This document shows, piece after piece, positions 5,687-19,545 of a stretch of 64,000 nucleotides of DNA. Every line of letters starts with the position of its first letter. Position 1 is the first letter of the stretch. Source of the DNA: Geothrix terrae. GTDB taxonomy: Bacteria; Acidobacteriota; Holophagae; Holophagales; Holophagaceae. The position numbers and the translations under genes were made by a program. Location: positions 124,001-188,000 of the forward strand of contig NZ_JAKZLA010000004.1 in assembly GCF_022808775.1 (NCBI RefSeq). The letters are read 5' to 3'. The notes under the pieces were generated by a model. It made no database searches, was not told the origin of the DNA, and saw only the letters and a list, made by a program, of their open reading frames with translations.

Positions 5687-5721
5687 CGCAGAAGGCGGCC
5701 AGGGGCCGCCTTCTGCGTTTT
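5687..5721 (+). terminator. Rho-independent terminator after acyl-CoA dehydrogenase
   Basis: A perfect 14-bp stem (arms 5687-5700 and 5704-5717, loop AGG) is followed by TTTT. It lies directly after the repeated gene end, so it should close the acyl-CoA dehydrogenase transcript. Confidence 0.9.
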
Positions 5722-5726
5722 GGGTC

Positions 5727-5755
5727 TTGAAGACCGCAACCCCCGACCCTAGAAT
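5727..5755 (+). promoter_or_regulatory. Promoter of the cold-shock gene
   Basis: TTGAAG (5727-5732), a 17-base spacer and TAGAAT (5750-5755). Transcription would begin near 5762, which leaves a leader of roughly 160 bases before the ATG at 5926. Long leaders are typical of cold-shock genes, where they act as temperature-sensitive mRNA elements. Confidence 0.6.
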
Positions 5756-5925
5756 CCCTGTCAACCATCCATCTTTACCAGCTCAACAGCCGTGAAAAGT
5801 GGGGGAGGGACTCCCGCCGGGGATCCCGGTTTCACTCGGGCGCAAGCCTCCGCGATCCGCATGCCTGGTGCGTATCGCGCGACCAACCTCCAGGCTTATG
5901 GGGCTCCGTCCCCGGGAAGAAAGTC

Positions 5926-6129
5926 ATGTCCGAAGGTACCGTCAAGTGGTTCAACGCCGAGAAGGGGTTCGGGTTCATCACCCCCGATGAGGGTGGAGCC
6001 GACATCTTCGTTCACTACTCGGCCGTCCAGGCCAAAGGGTTCCGCACCCTCGAGGAGAAGCAGCGGGTCAGCTTCGACGTGGTGCAGGGCCCCAAGGGGC
6101 CCCAGGCCGCGAACGTCAACAAGATCTGA
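5926..6129 (+). CDS. Cold-shock domain protein (CspA family)
   Basis: A 67-residue single cold-shock domain (OB-fold) protein of the normal length. The RNP-1-like motif is KGFGFI (residues 14-19) and RNP-2 is IFVHY, the aromatic residues that stack on single-stranded RNA or DNA. Such proteins act as RNA chaperones in the cytosol; only some are cold-induced. GAAGAAAG before the ATG is the ribosome-binding site. It stands alone between its own promoter and a hairpin terminator, with a long leader that could regulate translation. Confidence 0.95.
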
Positions 6130-6144
6130 TTCCCCTTTTTCCCC

Positions 6145-6170
6145 CGGGCCCCGGTTCCGGCCGGGGCCCG
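6145..6170 (+). terminator. GC-rich hairpin after the cold-shock gene
   Basis: CGGGCCCCGG and CCGGGGCCCG form a 10-bp stem with a six-base loop, 15 bases after the csp stop. There is no T-run after it, so termination would be weak or Rho-assisted. Confidence 0.5.
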
Positions 6171-6187
6171 TCGCGTACCCTGGAGCC

Positions 6188-7867
6188 ATGAAGAAGGCCT
6201 CCGTCCGCCCGGTCCTGGGCATCCTGCTGATCGCCTTGATCGTCCTTCTGTCGCTGGAGGGATTCCGCCGCGACCCCCGGTTCGGGTGGATCCTCCCGCT
6301 CACGGTCCTGGCCGGGGCCTGGCTGGGCTGGGCGATCCGGCAGGCCTGGCTGTACCCCCCGCGGCTGACCCGCGCCGAAGCCATGTGGGCCGCCGGCGAG
6401 CCCGCCTCGGCCGTGGCGGAGTGTCTCTCCCGGGCGCCCCTGGCCACCGGCGAGCTGGGGTATCGGATCCGCCTCCTGCGGAGCGCGGCGCACCAGGCCC
6501 TCGGCTACCGGGACCGGGCCTGGCTGGATGCCCTGGAGGCCCAGCTCGCCCGCCTCCCCCTCTGGAAGCGGCTGGTGGTGTCCCTCGCCTTCCGGCGGGT
6601 TCCCGACACACCCTCCTCCCGCCGGATCGCCTGGGGGGACCGGTTCATCCGCCTGGCCCCGCGGATGGCCCGGCTCCGCCACCTGCAGGGCATCCTCCTC
6701 CTGCGCTCCGGCCGCGAGGATGCGCTGCATCGGGCCTGGACCCAATTCGAGGATGCCCTCCCCCTGGCCTGGGATGATCCGCTGGTGCTCGAGGACCTGA
6801 TGCTGGCCGGTTTCCAGCATGGACGGGAGGACGTGGCCGAGCGCGCCCTGGCGACGCTGATCTCCCGCCACGGCGACCCGCGGCTCCCCTGGGACCGCGG
6901 GGCTGCGGGCATGTACCTGCTGCGGAACGGCAGGCCTGCCGAAGCCCTGGGCCTGGTCGGGGGCCTTCCCCGGGATCGCCGTGACCAGCCACTGCCCTGG
7001 CTCGTGGAATGCCTGTCCCGCCGGCGCATGGGAGACATCGACGGAGCCTGGAGGACGGTGGAGGACGCGGTCGGACAGTTGCCGGACGCCTTCCGCCTCT
7101 GGATGGAGCGGTACCAGATCGCACTCGACCTGGAACGCGACGCGGAGGCGCTCGGGAGCCTGGCGCGGGCCTGGCGGACCCTCCCGGAGGGAACGGAGGG
7201 GGATCTCCTCCGCGAAGAGTGGCAGCTCCGCCGAGCCGAGTTCGCCTTCTGGTGGGAGGGCGATCCAGCCTTCGCGAAACAGCTCCTCGAGAAGCTTCCG
7301 CCGGATCGCCAAGGCGACCATCGCCCCCCGCTCCTCCTGCAGGTCCGGGTGGCCCTGGGAGAATACGAAGCAGCCTACGGAGAGGTCGCGACCCTGCTCC
7401 AGCGGACCCCCGACGACACGAGCCTCCTGCTGCTCCAGGCCGACTGCCTCGCCGGCCTGGAAGCCTGGGAGGCCCTGCTCCCCTATCTGAACGGCCTGGG
7501 GGAGTCCTGCCGGGAGCGCGCCGATTTCTGGCACCTGCGGGGACTCGCCCGGGCCAACCTGGCGGATCACGTCCCCGCCCGCCTGGATCTGGAACATGCG
7601 GTGCGGATGGACCCCCGGAACCTGGGGTTCCTGATGGACGCAGGACATGCCTGCGCGGAGCTTGGCGATTGGGACCGGGCGGAGAGCCACTGGCGGCAGG
7701 CCCTCCAGGTGGACAGCCAGTCCGAGGAGGCCCTGATCCAGCTGGCAGAGGCGAGACGGGAGCTGGAAGACCTCGACGGGGCGCGCCGCTACCTGCGCGA
7801 GTGCCTGCTTCACCACCCCGACAGCGCCGATGCCCAAGCCCGCCTGGCGGAACTGGAGGCCAACTGA
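6188..7867 (+). CDS. Membrane-anchored TPR-repeat protein
   Basis: A 559-residue protein with two hydrophobic segments at the N-terminus (about 7-24 and 33-52) followed by a long alpha-helical region with TPR-like repeats. The clearest are near the C-terminus, where the pattern LMDAGHACAELGDWDRAESH and its follow-on unit fit the TPR consensus. It probably scaffolds protein contacts near the inner membrane; no enzymatic motif is visible. The ATG at 6188 has only a weak GGAG but is six bases after a TACCCT -10-like hexamer, so the mRNA may be leaderless. Convergent with another TPR-containing gene. Confidence 0.8.
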   Translation: MKKASVRPVLGILLIALIVLLSLEGFRRDPRFGWILPLTVLAGAWLGWAIRQAWLYPPRLTRAEAMWAAGEPASAVAECLSRAPLATGELGYRIRLLRSAAHQALGYRDRAWLDALEAQLARLPLWKRLVVSLAFRRVPDTPSSRRIAWGDRFIRLAPRMARLRHLQGILLLRSGREDALHRAWTQFEDALPLAWDDPLVLEDLMLAGFQHGREDVAERALATLISRHGDPRLPWDRGAAGMYLLRNGRPAEALGLVGGLPRDRRDQPLPWLVECLSRRRMGDIDGAWRTVEDAVGQLPDAFRLWMERYQIALDLERDAEALGSLARAWRTLPEGTEGDLLREEWQLRRAEFAFWWEGDPAFAKQLLEKLPPDRQGDHRPPLLLQVRVALGEYEAAYGEVATLLQRTPDDTSLLLLQADCLAGLEAWEALLPYLNGLGESCRERADFWHLRGLARANLADHVPARLDLEHAVRMDPRNLGFLMDAGHACAELGDWDRAESHWRQALQVDSQSEEALIQLAEARRELEDLDGARRYLRECLLHHPDSADAQARLAELEAN

Positions 7868-7877
7868 GCTCCCAGGA

Positions 7878-8936
7878 TCAATCAGGCTTGATGTTCCGGA
7901 GCAGCGAGAGCTTGCTGTCGTAGCGGGCCTGCGCCTCGGGCTGGGCCCACTTGCGGGCCTTCTCCAGCGACTTGATGGCGTCCTTCGTCCGGCCCTGGGC
8001 CAGGGCCACCCGGGCCTGGATCCAGTAGAACTCCGGTTCGTAGTGAAGCAGCTTGATGGCCTGCTTGATGCGCCGCCCCGCCTCGTCCCACTGCTGTTCC
8101 CCGAGAGCCTCTTCGGCCAGGAAGGCGTTGAAGAAGGGATCCCGCTTCCGGATCTCCAGGCCGCGCTCCCGGTAGGCGGTCGCTTCCTCAATGCGGCCCT
8201 GGGCCCTCAGGAGGTTCTCCAGGTTCCCGCAGGGGGCGCCGTCCTTTGGATCTTCCGAGAGGGCCTTCCGGAACGAAGCCTCGGCGTCGGCGTCGTGCCC
8301 CTGGGCCCGCTGGACCACCCCCAGGATGTTCCAGCCCACTCCCAGGGCCGGATCCACCTCGATGGAGTGGCGGGCGACATGGAGGGCTTCCTCCGGCTTC
8401 TCCTCCGCCAGCAGCTCCACCGCCCGGTTGCTGAAGTAGAGTGCCTGCACCCGCTTCGGCTCGAGCGGCGCGATGAGCAGGCTGTCCCGGCGCACCTCGG
8501 GCAGGAAGTCGGCCACCAGCTCCTGTCCCAGCGTCCCGGACTGCACCACGGCCACCACGTGCCGCTCGAACCGCACCGTCGAGCCCACCCGGCGCCAGCG
8601 GCTGATCCGCAGGGGCTCACCGTACCGGACCTCGAGGCCGATGGACTTGCACGCGCCCACGAAAAGCGCGGTGAGGCCAAGGCAGTTGGCTTTGCGATCC
8701 CTCCAGACCTCCTTGGGGGTCCGGGTGTAGGCATTGTCATACACGATCCCCAGCCCACCCTCCTCGACCGGGGAGAAAAAGGCGCGGAGCAGGGTGGAGA
8801 CCTTGGAGGGGACGCTCGGCCGGCCATTGGTCTGCTGACGCGCAAAAGCCTGAACCTCCGGCGGCGGCTCGAAGGGATCCTCGCCAGCCGTCAGCAGCAC
8901 GGCACCAAGCAGCAACGGCAGGATACGCAGGCGCAT
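7878..8936 (-). CDS. Secreted transglutaminase-like/TPR protein
   Basis: A 352-residue protein with a signal peptide (about 1-18). Residues 60-150 look like a transglutaminase/papain-like fold: Cys85 in KANCLGLTAL, His126 in FERHVVAV and Asp143 in VADFLPE form a plausible catalytic triad. Residues 160-340 contain TPR-like helix pairs (for example GWNILGVVQRAQGHDADAEA). The family could cleave or cross-link peptides in the periplasm, but this is inferred from fold cues. GGGAG five bases upstream supports the ATG at 8936. It ends 11 bases from the convergent TPR gene. Confidence 0.75.
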   Translation of the reverse strand: MRLRILPLLLGAVLLTAGEDPFEPPPEVQAFARQQTNGRPSVPSKVSTLLRAFFSPVEEGGLGIVYDNAYTRTPKEVWRDRKANCLGLTALFVGACKSIGLEVRYGEPLRISRWRRVGSTVRFERHVVAVVQSGTLGQELVADFLPEVRRDSLLIAPLEPKRVQALYFSNRAVELLAEEKPEEALHVARHSIEVDPALGVGWNILGVVQRAQGHDADAEASFRKALSEDPKDGAPCGNLENLLRAQGRIEEATAYRERGLEIRKRDPFFNAFLAEEALGEQQWDEAGRRIKQAIKLLHYEPEFYWIQARVALAQGRTKDAIKSLEKARKWAQPEAQARYDSKLSLLRNIKPD

Positions 8937-16183: not shown

Positions 16184-16777
16184 TCACTGAGCGGTGAGCG
16201 TTCCCACCGCCAGGACGAGTGGCCGTTTGACTCCCTGCCCATCCAGGTACTGGGAGGTTTTCTGGTCCGTGGGCACGAGGGATATCCGGCTTCCCGACAG
16301 GCAGCCTGTCTTCAGGTCCAGGGCCACGCTCAGGATCGGAGTGCTGCCGAGGGTGGCCGGCGGGGCGCCGGTCTGGAAGAGCCCTACCTGGAGGTCGTCC
16401 GTCCCCTGGGGTTGCCGGGAGGTGAACAGCGGTACGACGCCGAGGGTGAGGGCCGTCCCAGCCTTGGCGTGGGGATCCGTCCCCCCCGGAGCTCCCCAGG
16501 ACGCCCGGGTGCCATCGCAGGTGAGGAACACGGCGACCCCCTGGGCCGGGGTACCCGCGGGCCCCATGAGGTTCAGCACCAGGTGGGACGTGTCGTTGGT
16601 GGTGGGATCCGCCTCCAGCCGGAAACCCGAGGAAACGGGGTTCGCATAGTGGAGCCGCGTCGCGGGGCCCGCAGGCTGGGGGGCCGAGCCGCCTCCTCCG
16701 CCGCCGCAGGAAACCACGGCCAGGGCGAGGAATGGAAACAGGAGTCCGAGAAGTCGGGAGCGGGTCCGGAGGCTCAT
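16184..16777 (-). CDS. Lipoprotein with possible cohesin-like beta domain
   Basis: A 197-residue lipoprotein: signal peptide with lipobox AVVSC (lipid-bearing Cys24) and then a run of six glycines as a flexible tether. The remaining 165 residues are strand-rich with no catalytic motif. The order of strands, including the block DDLQVGLFQTG followed by PILSVALDLKTG, recalls cohesin domains, though the match is weak and not proven. The ATG overlaps the TGA of the dockerin-bearing peptidase gene (ATGA). That coupling suggests the two products work together, with this one as a surface anchor. Confidence 0.7.
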   Translation of the reverse strand: MSLRTRSRLLGLLFPFLALAVVSCGGGGGGSAPQPAGPATRLHYANPVSSGFRLEADPTTNDTSHLVLNLMGPAGTPAQGVAVFLTCDGTRASWGAPGGTDPHAKAGTALTLGVVPLFTSRQPQGTDDLQVGLFQTGAPPATLGSTPILSVALDLKTGCLSGSRISLVPTDQKTSQYLDGQGVKRPLVLAVGTLTAQ

Positions 16778-19545
16778 GGCTGGATCCTCGGAAAGACGTC
16801 CATGAAGAGGGAGACGTCGGTGTCGTCGATGACCCCGTCACCGTTCAGATCCACTTTCGGATCGAAGGTGGCATCGCCAGTCCTGCTCCCGTAGGCCTTC
16901 GCCAGTTCCAGCATGTCCAGGACATCCACCGTGCCCGTGCCCAGGAAATCCAGAGTCTTCACGGGAATGGCCAGGGTGTCCGAGACCGTGCCTGAGTTAC
17001 CCCAGTCCACCCGGAGGCTCAGGTCCCCGACCATGGCTGGCTCGATGGTGAAGGTGAGTGGGTTGCCGGAGAGCGACCACCGACCGCCACCATTCGAGAC
17101 GAGCCAACCGACCCGCTGGTCGACGTCCCCCGTCACGGTCGCCGTGAAGGTCACGGTGGATCCCGCTACCACGGCCAGGGGCCTGGGGCTGATGGCCACG
17201 GATACCGCGCCATCAGGCTCGATGATCAGGAAGTAGTACGACGCGCTCCCGAAGGGCGTGGTCACCTGGATGCTTCCGGAGATGGCCATCGGGGGCACGG
17301 TAGCCGTGATCTGGGTGTCGCTGTCCACGGTGAAGGGGGCCGGCACCGCGGCGAAGCCCGCCATGCCCTGGAAGGCCACAGAAGTGCAGCCGGTGAGGCC
17401 GGAGCCAGTGAGCACCACGGAGGTGCCCCGCTTGCAGGACCTGGGACTGATGGACATGAGCAAAGGACGGAGCACCTGGAAGGAGGTCGAGCTGAGCCCT
17501 GATCCCCCGGGGGTGTTCACCAGGATCGGCCCGGTGGTCACCTGGTCGGATCCGAGCACGCTGGCCTTTGGGACCGTGGTGGCGATCTGGGTGTCGCTCT
17601 GAACGGAGAAGGGGGCATCGAGACCATTGAAGGCCACGTGAGTGGCCCCGGTGAACCCGGAGCCGGTGAGGATGACCGGATCTCCTGGATTTCCACTCGC
17701 GGGAGTGAAGGAGCTGATGACAGGCAGAGGCACGGGATCGGAGGGGTCCAGCACCACGGCGAAGTCGTCCAGACGCCAGAAAGAGGAGTTCACCATCCAA
17801 TCGCAGTGGATCTTCACCTGCCGGCCCTTGAGGTCTCCAAGGCCGAAGCGGTCCTGCTTCCACAGCAAGTGCTTCGCCGAGAAACTGCTGGAGCCATAGG
17901 TCATCACGGGCCTCAGCAGCTGGCCGGTGGCGGCGTCGAGGATGGAGACGGACAGAGAGAAGAAGCCCGTCCCCCAGAGGCCGAGCCCGCTTCTGCCGTT
18001 AAGCCAGTAGCTCAGCAGCACGGAGCCCGGGCCCGAGGGGATGGTGAGGGTCTGATCGAGGGCCCCATTGAAGTCCCACTGCCCCGGACCACCCAGGAAG
18101 GCGTCCCACTGCCCCGTGCGGGCAGAGCTCTCCTGACGCCAGGGCGTGAAGTCGATGGGGGTACCCAGCTGAGTGGTGGCCGTCGTCCAGGCCGCCTGTC
18201 CGAGACCTCCCTCGAACCCCGGGTTGCCGAGCAGTTGTTGCTGGCCCGCCATGGACGGCACCACGACCGCGGGGCCGGAGGTCTGGACGGGGAGTCCTCC
18301 CACGGTGTTGGAGACCACCACGCGGTAGGCCCGACCCGACTCGACCCCGGTGAGATAGGGGAGCGTGTAGGCGGCCGAGCGCGCATCGGGGATGTCCTGC
18401 CCGTCCACCTGCCACTGGTAGGTGAATGGGGGGTAGCCCGTCGGAGTCGCCGAGAAGGTCAGAGGCTGCCCCAGCTTCGCCTGGGAGGATGACGCCATCG
18501 CCACGTCCGGCACGGTGGCCGCGGGATGGTCGGCGCTGAGATCCAGGACTTCGAACCCGTAGTTGGTGTAGGCCTTCCCGGCGTAGGTGAAGGTGGCGCC
18601 GTAGTTCATGGCCATGGGCATCCGGAACAGGCCGCCTGGGCGGCCTGGGGTGAGCCCCCAGCTGTTCAGCACGATCCAGAAGTGGTTGGCCGGGGTGGGA
18701 TCGCTCTCGTCGTACCCGACGATGACCACCATGTGGGCCCCCCAGCGCTCATCCGGTGGCCCGGTCGGGCCCGTGACCGGCTCGGGCCACAGCACATCCT
18801 CGGCCTGGGTCTCCCACCACTCCTCGAACCCGCCGGCGCCCGAGAACTGCGTGATGAAGGAAAAGCCGACCACCTTGTGCTGGTCGAGCATGTTCTTGAT
18901 GTTGGCGATGGCCGTGGCCTGGGATACTCCGGATGTCTGGACCGTCTTGCCCGAGACCGCCACGTGGGTGTAGGCCGGGGAGAGCTGGATGGCGGAGGTG
19001 GGGACGAGGCTCTGGGTGCACCGGGGATCGACGATCCCATCCACGTAGGCGGCATTGGCATTGCTCTCGGGGACCAGGAGTCCGGGCCCGTTCACGAGCT
19101 TGCAGTAGGTCGCGAGGTCACCGCCGTTCTGGAAGGTATAGGCGTCGGCCAGCGAATCGACGTACTGCACGGAGAGCCGGTCCGCGTACCCGTAGGCGAC
19201 CTTGAGCGCCGTCTCCGACATGGCGGACGCGGCCCAGTTCCAGCAGTTTCCGTTGGCTCCCTGGTCCCGGGACGGCCCCCGGGTGGACACATCCTCCAGC
19301 CAGTCCACCCTGGTCGCGCTGCCTCCCGGCCCAGCCAGGGGAAGCGGGTGGATGTTCGCGAGGGGCTGTTCCCGGCGAGCCCGGTCCCAGGCTTCCACCT
19401 GGGCCGGATCCAGGGGCATGTAGCCGTGTCGCCGCGCCAGAGGGGGGAGGTCTTGCCGGGCCTGGGCCTCTGCTCCTGGGACTACACCCAGAAGCAGGCC
19501 CAGCAACAGCCTTCGGATGAGCCAATCCGCCCTGAGCCTGCCCAT
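16774..19545 (-). CDS. Secreted papain-like (C1) peptidase with Ig, TIG and dockerin-like modules
   Basis: A 923-residue exported protein. Signal peptide about 1-27. A C1 peptidase domain (about 78-335) has Cys101 in DQGANGNCWNWAAS, His271 in WGAHMVVIVGYDE and Asn294 in VLNSWG. Then come an Ig-like domain (345-430), a jelly-roll-like region (435-600), two IPT/TIG domains (605-692, 694-775), another Ig-like region (778-863) and a C-terminal dockerin-like pair of EF-hand loops (865-918). The second loop, DLNGDGVIDDTD, is a full calcium loop; the first, DFLGTGTVDVLD, has lost two ligands. It should be a cell-surface or secreted protease. It is coupled to the downstream lipoprotein gene. Confidence 0.85.
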   Translation of the reverse strand: MGRLRADWLIRRLLLGLLLGVVPGAEAQARQDLPPLARRHGYMPLDPAQVEAWDRARREQPLANIHPLPLAGPGGSATRVDWLEDVSTRGPSRDQGANGNCWNWAASAMSETALKVAYGYADRLSVQYVDSLADAYTFQNGGDLATYCKLVNGPGLLVPESNANAAYVDGIVDPRCTQSLVPTSAIQLSPAYTHVAVSGKTVQTSGVSQATAIANIKNMLDQHKVVGFSFITQFSGAGGFEEWWETQAEDVLWPEPVTGPTGPPDERWGAHMVVIVGYDESDPTPANHFWIVLNSWGLTPGRPGGLFRMPMAMNYGATFTYAGKAYTNYGFEVLDLSADHPAATVPDVAMASSSQAKLGQPLTFSATPTGYPPFTYQWQVDGQDIPDARSAAYTLPYLTGVESGRAYRVVVSNTVGGLPVQTSGPAVVVPSMAGQQQLLGNPGFEGGLGQAAWTTATTQLGTPIDFTPWRQESSARTGQWDAFLGGPGQWDFNGALDQTLTIPSGPGSVLLSYWLNGRSGLGLWGTGFFSLSVSILDAATGQLLRPVMTYGSSSFSAKHLLWKQDRFGLGDLKGRQVKIHCDWMVNSSFWRLDDFAVVLDPSDPVPLPVISSFTPASGNPGDPVILTGSGFTGATHVAFNGLDAPFSVQSDTQIATTVPKASVLGSDQVTTGPILVNTPGGSGLSSTSFQVLRPLLMSISPRSCKRGTSVVLTGSGLTGCTSVAFQGMAGFAAVPAPFTVDSDTQITATVPPMAISGSIQVTTPFGSASYYFLIIEPDGAVSVAISPRPLAVVAGSTVTFTATVTGDVDQRVGWLVSNGGGRWSLSGNPLTFTIEPAMVGDLSLRVDWGNSGTVSDTLAIPVKTLDFLGTGTVDVLDMLELAKAYGSRTGDATFDPKVDLNGDGVIDDTDVSLFMDVFPRIQP

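Follow-up and report, generated by a model that had tools for sequence, protein, structure and literature searches.

An overlapping gene pair for a dockerin-bearing papain-family peptidase and a predicted cohesin-fold lipoprotein in Geothrix terrae, a candidate one-enzyme, one-socket anchoring system of the Holophagaceae

Results

The peptidase-lipoprotein gene pair

In a stretch of 64,000 nucleotides from Geothrix terrae (the window; contig positions 124001-188000 of a genome of 3.4 Mb in 14 contigs), two overlapping genes on the minus strand encode a secreted papain-family (C1) peptidase of 923 amino acids with a C-terminal dockerin (16774..19545) and a lipoprotein of 197 amino acids (16184..16777), a candidate cohesin-fold receptor. 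All features described below lie on the same strand. The stop of the peptidase gene and the start of the lipoprotein gene share the sequence ATGA, which reads TCAT on the plus strand at 16774-16777; of 68 homologous pairs inspected, 37 could have a stop/start overlap of this NTGA type. A scan for promoters and terminators found nothing above chance.

The peptidase begins with a Sec-type signal peptide, read by eye (residues 1-27, 19465..19545), followed by a Peptidase_C1 domain (about residues 75-335, 18541..19323) that scores 35.8 bits against PF00112, for which the Pfam cut-off is 20.7. The C1 catalytic motifs, QGANGNCW (residues 95-101, with Cys101), GAHMVVIVGY (His271) and LNSWG (Asn294), are all intact, and the protein combines a profile match over the cut-off with the Gln/Cys, His and Asn motifs of a papain-like peptidase. 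Its remaining domains are an immunoglobulin (Ig)-like domain (about residues 345-426, 18268..18513; Ig_3, slightly below its cut-off), two IPT/TIG domains found by Pfam (residues 608-690 and 694-776, 17218..17724), an Ig/PKD-like domain (about residues 781-860, 16966..17205), for which I-set is over its cut-off in the whole protein and PKD is below, and the dockerin.

The dockerin module (residues 866-918, 16792..16950) was located with Pfam, with a dockerin profile of the family and from its predicted fold. It has the two tandem calcium-loop/helix repeats, C-terminal and spanning about 60-70 amino acids, by which dockerins are defined: loop 1 (residues 866-877, 16915..16950), DFLGTGTVDVLD, is degenerate, and loop 2 (residues 899-910, 16816..16851), DLNGDGVIDDTD, is canonical. 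Dockerin_1 (PF00404) scored 26.7 bits in the search of the genome, over its cut-off of 22.9, and 21.9 bits, slightly below it, by hmmscan of the 923-residue protein. The model of the module, with a predicted local distance difference test score (pLDDT) of 91.1, contains two helices, and 28 of its 34 Foldseek rows against the PDB were dockerin or cohesin-dockerin entries, with 5k39_B, 3kcp_A, 4u3s_B and 2y3n_B at the top; as a prediction, the module modestly fits the dockerin fold.

The lipoprotein starts with a signal peptide, read by eye (residues 1-23, 16709..16777), that runs into VVSC with the lipobox cysteine, Cys24 (16706..16708), in a column conserved in at least 90% of 61 family members; a lipobox cysteine at the end of a signal peptide is what marks a bacterial lipoprotein. 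GGGGGGS, with its six glycines, follows in a Gly-rich tether (residues 25-38, 16664..16705), and the rest of the protein (residues 39-197, 16187..16663) forms a beta-rich domain in the predicted structure, assigned to the cohesin fold by structure and profile comparison as set out below. A Pfam scan of the 197-residue protein gave no family at E ≤ 1, and NCBIfam, run on it and one relative, gave two sub-cut-off matches to the window protein, in the signal peptide and linker only. An earlier sequence-only reading of the window had placed both genes at these positions and lengths, had noted the ATGA overlap, and had called the larger product a C1 peptidase ending in a two-loop dockerin, one loop canonical and one degenerate, and the smaller a lipoprotein with a Gly-rich tether and a strand-rich domain; all of this agrees with the results above.

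Predicted cohesin fold of the lipoprotein

An alignment of 61 lipoproteins of the family, the window member included, served as input for AlphaFold2, which returned a model with a mean pLDDT of 95.0 and a predicted template modelling (TM) score of 0.88. Foldseek matched this model to cohesin entries of the PDB in all of rows 1-35, with a best E of 1.2e-5 and, across these rows, TM-scores (by query length) of 0.41-0.65, and VIA-align superposed it on the type II cohesin 4u3s_A with a Z of 13.6 and 2.8 Å over 141 residues. Rows 1-49 of the 50 from VIA-align were likewise cohesin entries, among which we count 3kcp, 4fl4 and 2o4e, whose titles do not say cohesin and which we take to be such; row 50, another fold at Z 9.0, lies near the weakest cohesin rows (9.4-9.5) and far below the best. 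The crystal complexes matched are the same for both models, the lipoprotein model fitting one partner chain with confidence and the dockerin model the other modestly.

At the level of profiles, the family was compared with recognized cohesins through bridging lipoproteins from other acidobacterial families, of which five were aligned (L116, L145, L146, L147 and L156). The Pfam cohesin profile, PF00963, matches three of them over its cut-off of 24.1 bits (27.6, 29.4 and 24.2 bits), a fourth below the cut-off and the fifth not at all, and L116, L147 and L156 have a dockerin match directly upstream (34.3, 19.4 and 19.7 bits, respectively). With the domain only, hhalign of the window family against the bridging lipoproteins gave a probability of 94.7 (E 6e-8), and hhalign of the bridging lipoproteins against Pfam cohesins gave 98.7 (E 1.8e-16). 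The score of L116 with the family hidden Markov model (HMM), 26.6 bits, was set aside as a bridge: without the lipobox and Gly linker it fell to 12.3 bits (E 0.012), the domain-only scores of L145 and L146 being 10.2 and 8.4 bits, and because it came partly from the shared lipobox and linker the bridge was rested on the linker-free hhalign comparison. The lipoprotein is confidently predicted to have the cohesin jelly-roll fold and looks like a member of a divergent cohesin family that goes unrecognized by Pfam and NCBIfam. The cohesin call of the sequence-only reading, weak when it was made, has gained both a confident predicted fold, by structure prediction, which that reading had itself proposed as a check, and a chain of profiles to Pfam cohesins.

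Two other genomes of the genus contain long frames with a Pfam cohesin and a dockerin in the same frame (1749 amino acids in L114, G029:C243, and 1574 in L115, G030:C403), which may be scaffold-like proteins, judging from their domain content.

Linkage of the two modules

In the genome of the window the lipoprotein has a single full-length paralogue, with which it shares 41% identity (E 7.6e-22), and a further two matches of 23-27 residues, in the signal peptide and linker only. Its two dockerin matches, in the C1 peptidase and in a protein with Sortilin-Vps10 (L065), form two adjacent pairs with its two full-length lipoproteins, and because both dockerins adjoin both full-length lipoproteins the pairing in this genome goes beyond chance.

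Directly downstream of this second cohesin-lipoprotein (L065, G000:C8:68393-79941) lies, at 5692-8907, a gene for a 1071-residue lipoprotein with TIG-like repeats, recognized by eye, and the sequence HETGHNMGRHH, a metallopeptidase motif of the HExxHxxGxxH type; it is possibly a third anchored protease of the same operon.

Matches to the lipoprotein were found in 69 of 150 sampled relatives, all but two of the 69 (67) belonging to the same family, and the family profile matched 44 of 396 sampled genomes of the phylum, 37 of them in the same family. Sixty loci were fetched, 53 from the top of the similarity ranking and seven from lower ranks, with G056:C240, where the match lies at the start of its contig, skipped. 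The count for the genus, 66 lipoproteins, was made after dropping 12 of 78 matches that were short and confined to query residues 4-61, and so cover the signal peptide, lipobox, linker and at most the first strands of the domain. PF00404 gave 61 matches in the genus at E ≤ 0.01, with a lipoprotein next downstream in 49, upstream in 3 and on neither side in 9; 14 lipoproteins have no dockerin by this measure. The family dockerin profile, by coincidence, also gave 61 matches, in 41 of 47 genomes, which are the same 41 that hold the lipoprotein, neither module being present in the other 6. Of these 61 matches, 58 stand beside a lipoprotein (55 upstream of it and 3 downstream) and three, including one at the edge of a contig, are unpaired, although this count is not independent of linkage because the profile was built from lipoprotein neighbours. 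Six of the 14 lipoproteins gained a dockerin in this way, which brings those beside a profile-detectable dockerin to 58 of 66, and the eight that are left belong to tandem arrays, spread over four genomes.

Over 95 loci, some of which were chosen for other reasons, and with dockerin matches admitted down to an independent E-value of 0.5, a dockerin is detectable within 3.5 kb of 77 of 89 lipoproteins (72 upstream and 5 downstream). Nine of the remaining 12 lie in the tandem arrays L117-L121, and the others are L152, L145 and L146. The occurrence of the lipoprotein without the dockerin protein in other genomes had been named in the sequence-only reading as an observation that would count against the pairing; with 58 of 66 lipoproteins of the genus paired, the pairing stood for the most part, and it did not extend to the apparent orphan L152 or to the distant L145 and L146.

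In the arrays (L117, L118, L119, L120 and L121) cohesin-type lipoproteins alternate with proteins whose tails are strongly degenerate. Those of G013, G037 and G044 were read (the array of G036, with 2 lipoprotein matches, fell outside this set), and the neighbours, of about 800-920 amino acids, end in degenerate dockerin-like tails in which an acidic loop-like sequence (such as DTDQDGEQDALD) is followed by a degraded second repeat. The two neighbours scanned, one from G013 and one from G037, are M4 peptidases, the latter with its M4 match below and its M4_C match above the cut-off. The M4 (thermolysin-like) array peptidase at L118:4284-6965 lacks the HExxH motif.

Several loci depart from the arrangement in the window. 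The order is reversed in L040, L042, L043, L047 and L052, where the lipoprotein comes first and is followed by the dockerin protein, in frames of 526-633 amino acids. In L086, L095, L127, L128 and L131 the cohesin domain begins 333-1011 nucleotides past the dockerin, and in four of these (L086, L095, L128 and L131) one to four additional Gly/Thr-rich repeats, seen by eye, lie between lipobox and cohesin and may form a longer stalk of variable length. Strong lipoprotein matches with dockerin partners in other families of the phylum (L143, G192:C307; L144, G323:C472) reflect either horizontal transfer or contamination.

Partners of the cohesin-type lipoproteins

We scanned 19 partner proteins with Pfam, as hand-picked representatives rather than a random sample. 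Peptidases, or proteins with the propeptide of a peptidase, account for nine: C1 in the window protein, L064 and L071, M4 in L087, L093, L117 and L118, C10 in L069, and a Pro-kumamolisin activation domain (S53 type) in L073. Six have Sortilin-Vps10 and/or BNR domains (L046, L061, L065, L079, L094 and L130), the Sortilin match being slightly below the cut-off in L061 and L130; one has NPCBM and Ig domains (L049), and in the last three (L045, L047 and L116) no domain was informative.

The distances between cohesins correlate with those between the corresponding dockerins (0.734, with none of 2000 permutations as high), and the distances between the remaining parts of the partners correlate less, at 0.623 with those of the cohesin and 0.684 with those of the dockerin. 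When the rest of the partner is allowed for, the partial cohesin-dockerin correlation is 0.539, and it is 0.375 among the 699 of 1485 pairs with seemingly unrelated N-terminal parts; in all these values the N-terminal distance is that of one best BLAST alignment, and some partners are truncated where a contig ends or have start calls that make them too long. Among pairs with unrelated N-terminal parts, the cohesins of L051 and L060, whose partners are relatives of the window peptidase (39-40% identity to it), are closest to the cohesins of loci such as L068, L070 and L072, whose partners group with the Vps10-type protein of L065, as if cassettes had been swapped between enzymes.

Discussion

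We consider it highly probable that one gene encodes an enzyme and the other a private socket for it, which tethers the complex at the outer membrane, and that the same cassette anchors other partners in the Holophagaceae. The peptidase would be exported by Sec, and its C-terminal dockerin would dock, presumably in a calcium-dependent manner, on the cohesin-fold domain of the co-translated lipoprotein, whose acyl-cysteine and Gly-rich tether would keep the complex on the outer membrane, most likely on its outward face, where the digestion of external protein would be its purpose. Other proteases and propeller-type proteins would be anchored in the same way by the same two-gene cassette. The arrangement looks like dedicated envelope tethering because the two-gene pairing recurs across the family with different proteases. 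We also incline, if only slightly, to the broader view that the Holophagaceae possess many private and mutually selective cohesin-dockerin pairs, encoded in overlapping or adjacent cassettes and serving as interchangeable surface sockets for unrelated peptidases and propeller-type proteins; since the divergent cohesins are missed by Pfam and NCBIfam, such pairs would amount to an orthogonal docking toolkit of natural origin, the equivalent for proteases of the anchoring seen in cellulosomes.

A number of observations weigh against the tethering of the peptidase by its neighbour. On the side of the lipoprotein, the search with PF00963, which had been suggested in the sequence-only reading as a check, was negative, with none of the 61 family members matched at E ≤ 1 and no match in the genome of the window at E ≤ 0.01; the family profile, run with hmmsearch on the sequences of the PDB, had no match at E ≤ 10, and the direct hhalign comparison with 17 Pfam-detected cohesins was weak (probability 13.5, E 0.002, 97 columns). 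On the side of the dockerin, loop 1 of the window protease is degenerate, and its fold matches are modest, with a best Foldseek E of 0.006, none at or below 0.001, and a best Z of only 7.6, to 2y3n_B, a modest value for a small module. In six of the 19 partners (L064, L069, L071, L073, L117 and L118) Pfam Dockerin_1 gave no match at the threshold applied, and the tails are visible only by the family profile or by eye. The linkage has its exceptions in an apparent orphan lipoprotein within the family (L152) and in L145 and L146 among distant relatives, in a dockerin protein without an adjoining lipoprotein (L142; a second unpaired match, in G040:C1, is weak), and in L130 (G053:C10), from a small-genome lineage, where the dockerin match is internal, at 708-751 of a 913-residue Vps10-like partner and 162 residues from its end. 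The naive Fisher value for the co-occurrence of the two modules in the genus, 9e-8, ignores gene linkage and the kinship of the species; five of the six genomes with neither module are 58-87% complete, and the joint absence of linked genes from incomplete genomes is not independent evidence. Finally, as a route by which a 923-residue enzyme would cross the outer membrane, the best GspD-like secretin match scored only 192 bits against a cut-off of 351.

This last point, together with the plain export signals on both proteins, would suit a complex that forms as we propose but is periplasmic, attached to the inner membrane or to the inner leaflet of the outer one, and serves, for example, in the turnover of envelope proteins. 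We regard such a location as unlikely, because the Ig/TIG spacers and the NPCBM and Vps10/BNR modules of the partners are typical of extracellular proteins, and because the subclass of lipoproteins with additional repeats between lipobox and cohesin is what might be expected of an outward reach.

Two further explanations do without docking between the two proteins. Chaperones and immunity partners are often encoded by overlapping genes, and carbohydrate-binding jelly rolls are similar to the cohesin fold; the lipoprotein might be cohesin-like in fold and yet help the peptidase to be secreted or to fold, or else inhibit it. This appears very unlikely to us: the family pairs with unrelated peptidases and with non-peptidases, the element common to them being the dockerin, and, as described above, cohesin distances track dockerin distances better than they track the remainder of the partner. 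The degenerate loop in the window dockerin, and the presence of Pfam cohesins in G029 and G030, might alternatively suggest that the dockerin-like tail binds an unlinked cohesin or a polymer of the cell envelope, with the lipoprotein a passive neighbour; this we hold to be highly improbable, given that the genome of the window has no match to PF00963, that both of its dockerins adjoin a cohesin-fold lipoprotein and that the pairing is seen in both gene orders. Docking of the peptidase on the lipoprotein encoded beside it is the reading that we retain.

Cohesin-dockerin docking is mainly known from cellulose degraders with shared scaffolds, while here it would take the form of a repeated one-enzyme, one-socket operon of environmental Acidobacteriota, often for proteases. 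If the binding is real, it provides a rule for reading 'dockerin protein plus adjoining hypothetical lipoprotein' in such genomes, accounts for a possible retention at the cell of the proteases that these bacteria secrete, and yields many cognate pairs that lend themselves to direct tests of selectivity.

In our searches of open-licence papers neither this lipoprotein family nor an acidobacterial protease-socket operon was found described, an earlier description in the Peer 2009 survey of non-cellulosomal cohesins being possible; PMC5900883 mentions dockerin once, in a figure legend.

Comparison with known systems

The predicted folds match both chains of the cellulosomal cohesin-dockerin complexes of types I and II (4u3s, 2y3n and 5k39). 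The system in the window differs from these in its single cohesin per lipoprotein, its lipid anchor, its peptidase and propeller-type partners and a sequence that lies beyond Pfam Cohesin. Cellulosomes are anchored by SLH domains or sortase. A cellulosome also has a multi-cohesin scaffoldin and many dockerin-bearing glycoside hydrolases, whereas the genome of the window has two dockerin proteins only and no match to PF00963, and therefore no recognizable scaffoldin; the pair looks like a one-enzyme, one-socket anchoring system of the Holophagaceae, unlike the cellulosome.

The non-cellulosomal pair of Archaeoglobus fulgidus resembles it in having a single cohesin outside a cellulosome, and its structure 2xdh was matched at Z 10.8; unlike the pair in the window, it is archaeal, and it is not known as a family of protease-socket operons. 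Its interaction is described in PMC9705933 as of high affinity and used for surface attachment in E. coli. Dockerin-bearing peptidases are also on record: RflaF_05439 of R. flavefaciens is a cellulosomal peptidase of the NlpC/P60-like type and not a C1 papain (PMC3573020), and, according to a review, binds the surface-anchoring ScaE cohesin (PMC12484212); the same review gives cell-surface anchoring as a proposal for an S8 double-dockerin protein of C. thermocellum (PMC12484212). These two proteins dock on the shared scaffoldins of fibre degraders, whereas here every enzyme comes with a separate socket gene that overlaps or adjoins it. Proteins with cohesins and dockerins outside cellulose degradation, with adjacent domains mentioned, are reported from anaerobic methanotrophic (ANME) archaea and their partner sulfate reducers in passages of PMC9012536 and PMC10553843, where they appear as adhesins, scaffold-like proteins or dockerin-bearing transporter components and not as lipid-anchored protease sockets. 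Non-cellulosomal cohesin-dockerin pairs are thus already known, and what looks new here is a divergent cohesin family in protease-socket cassettes.

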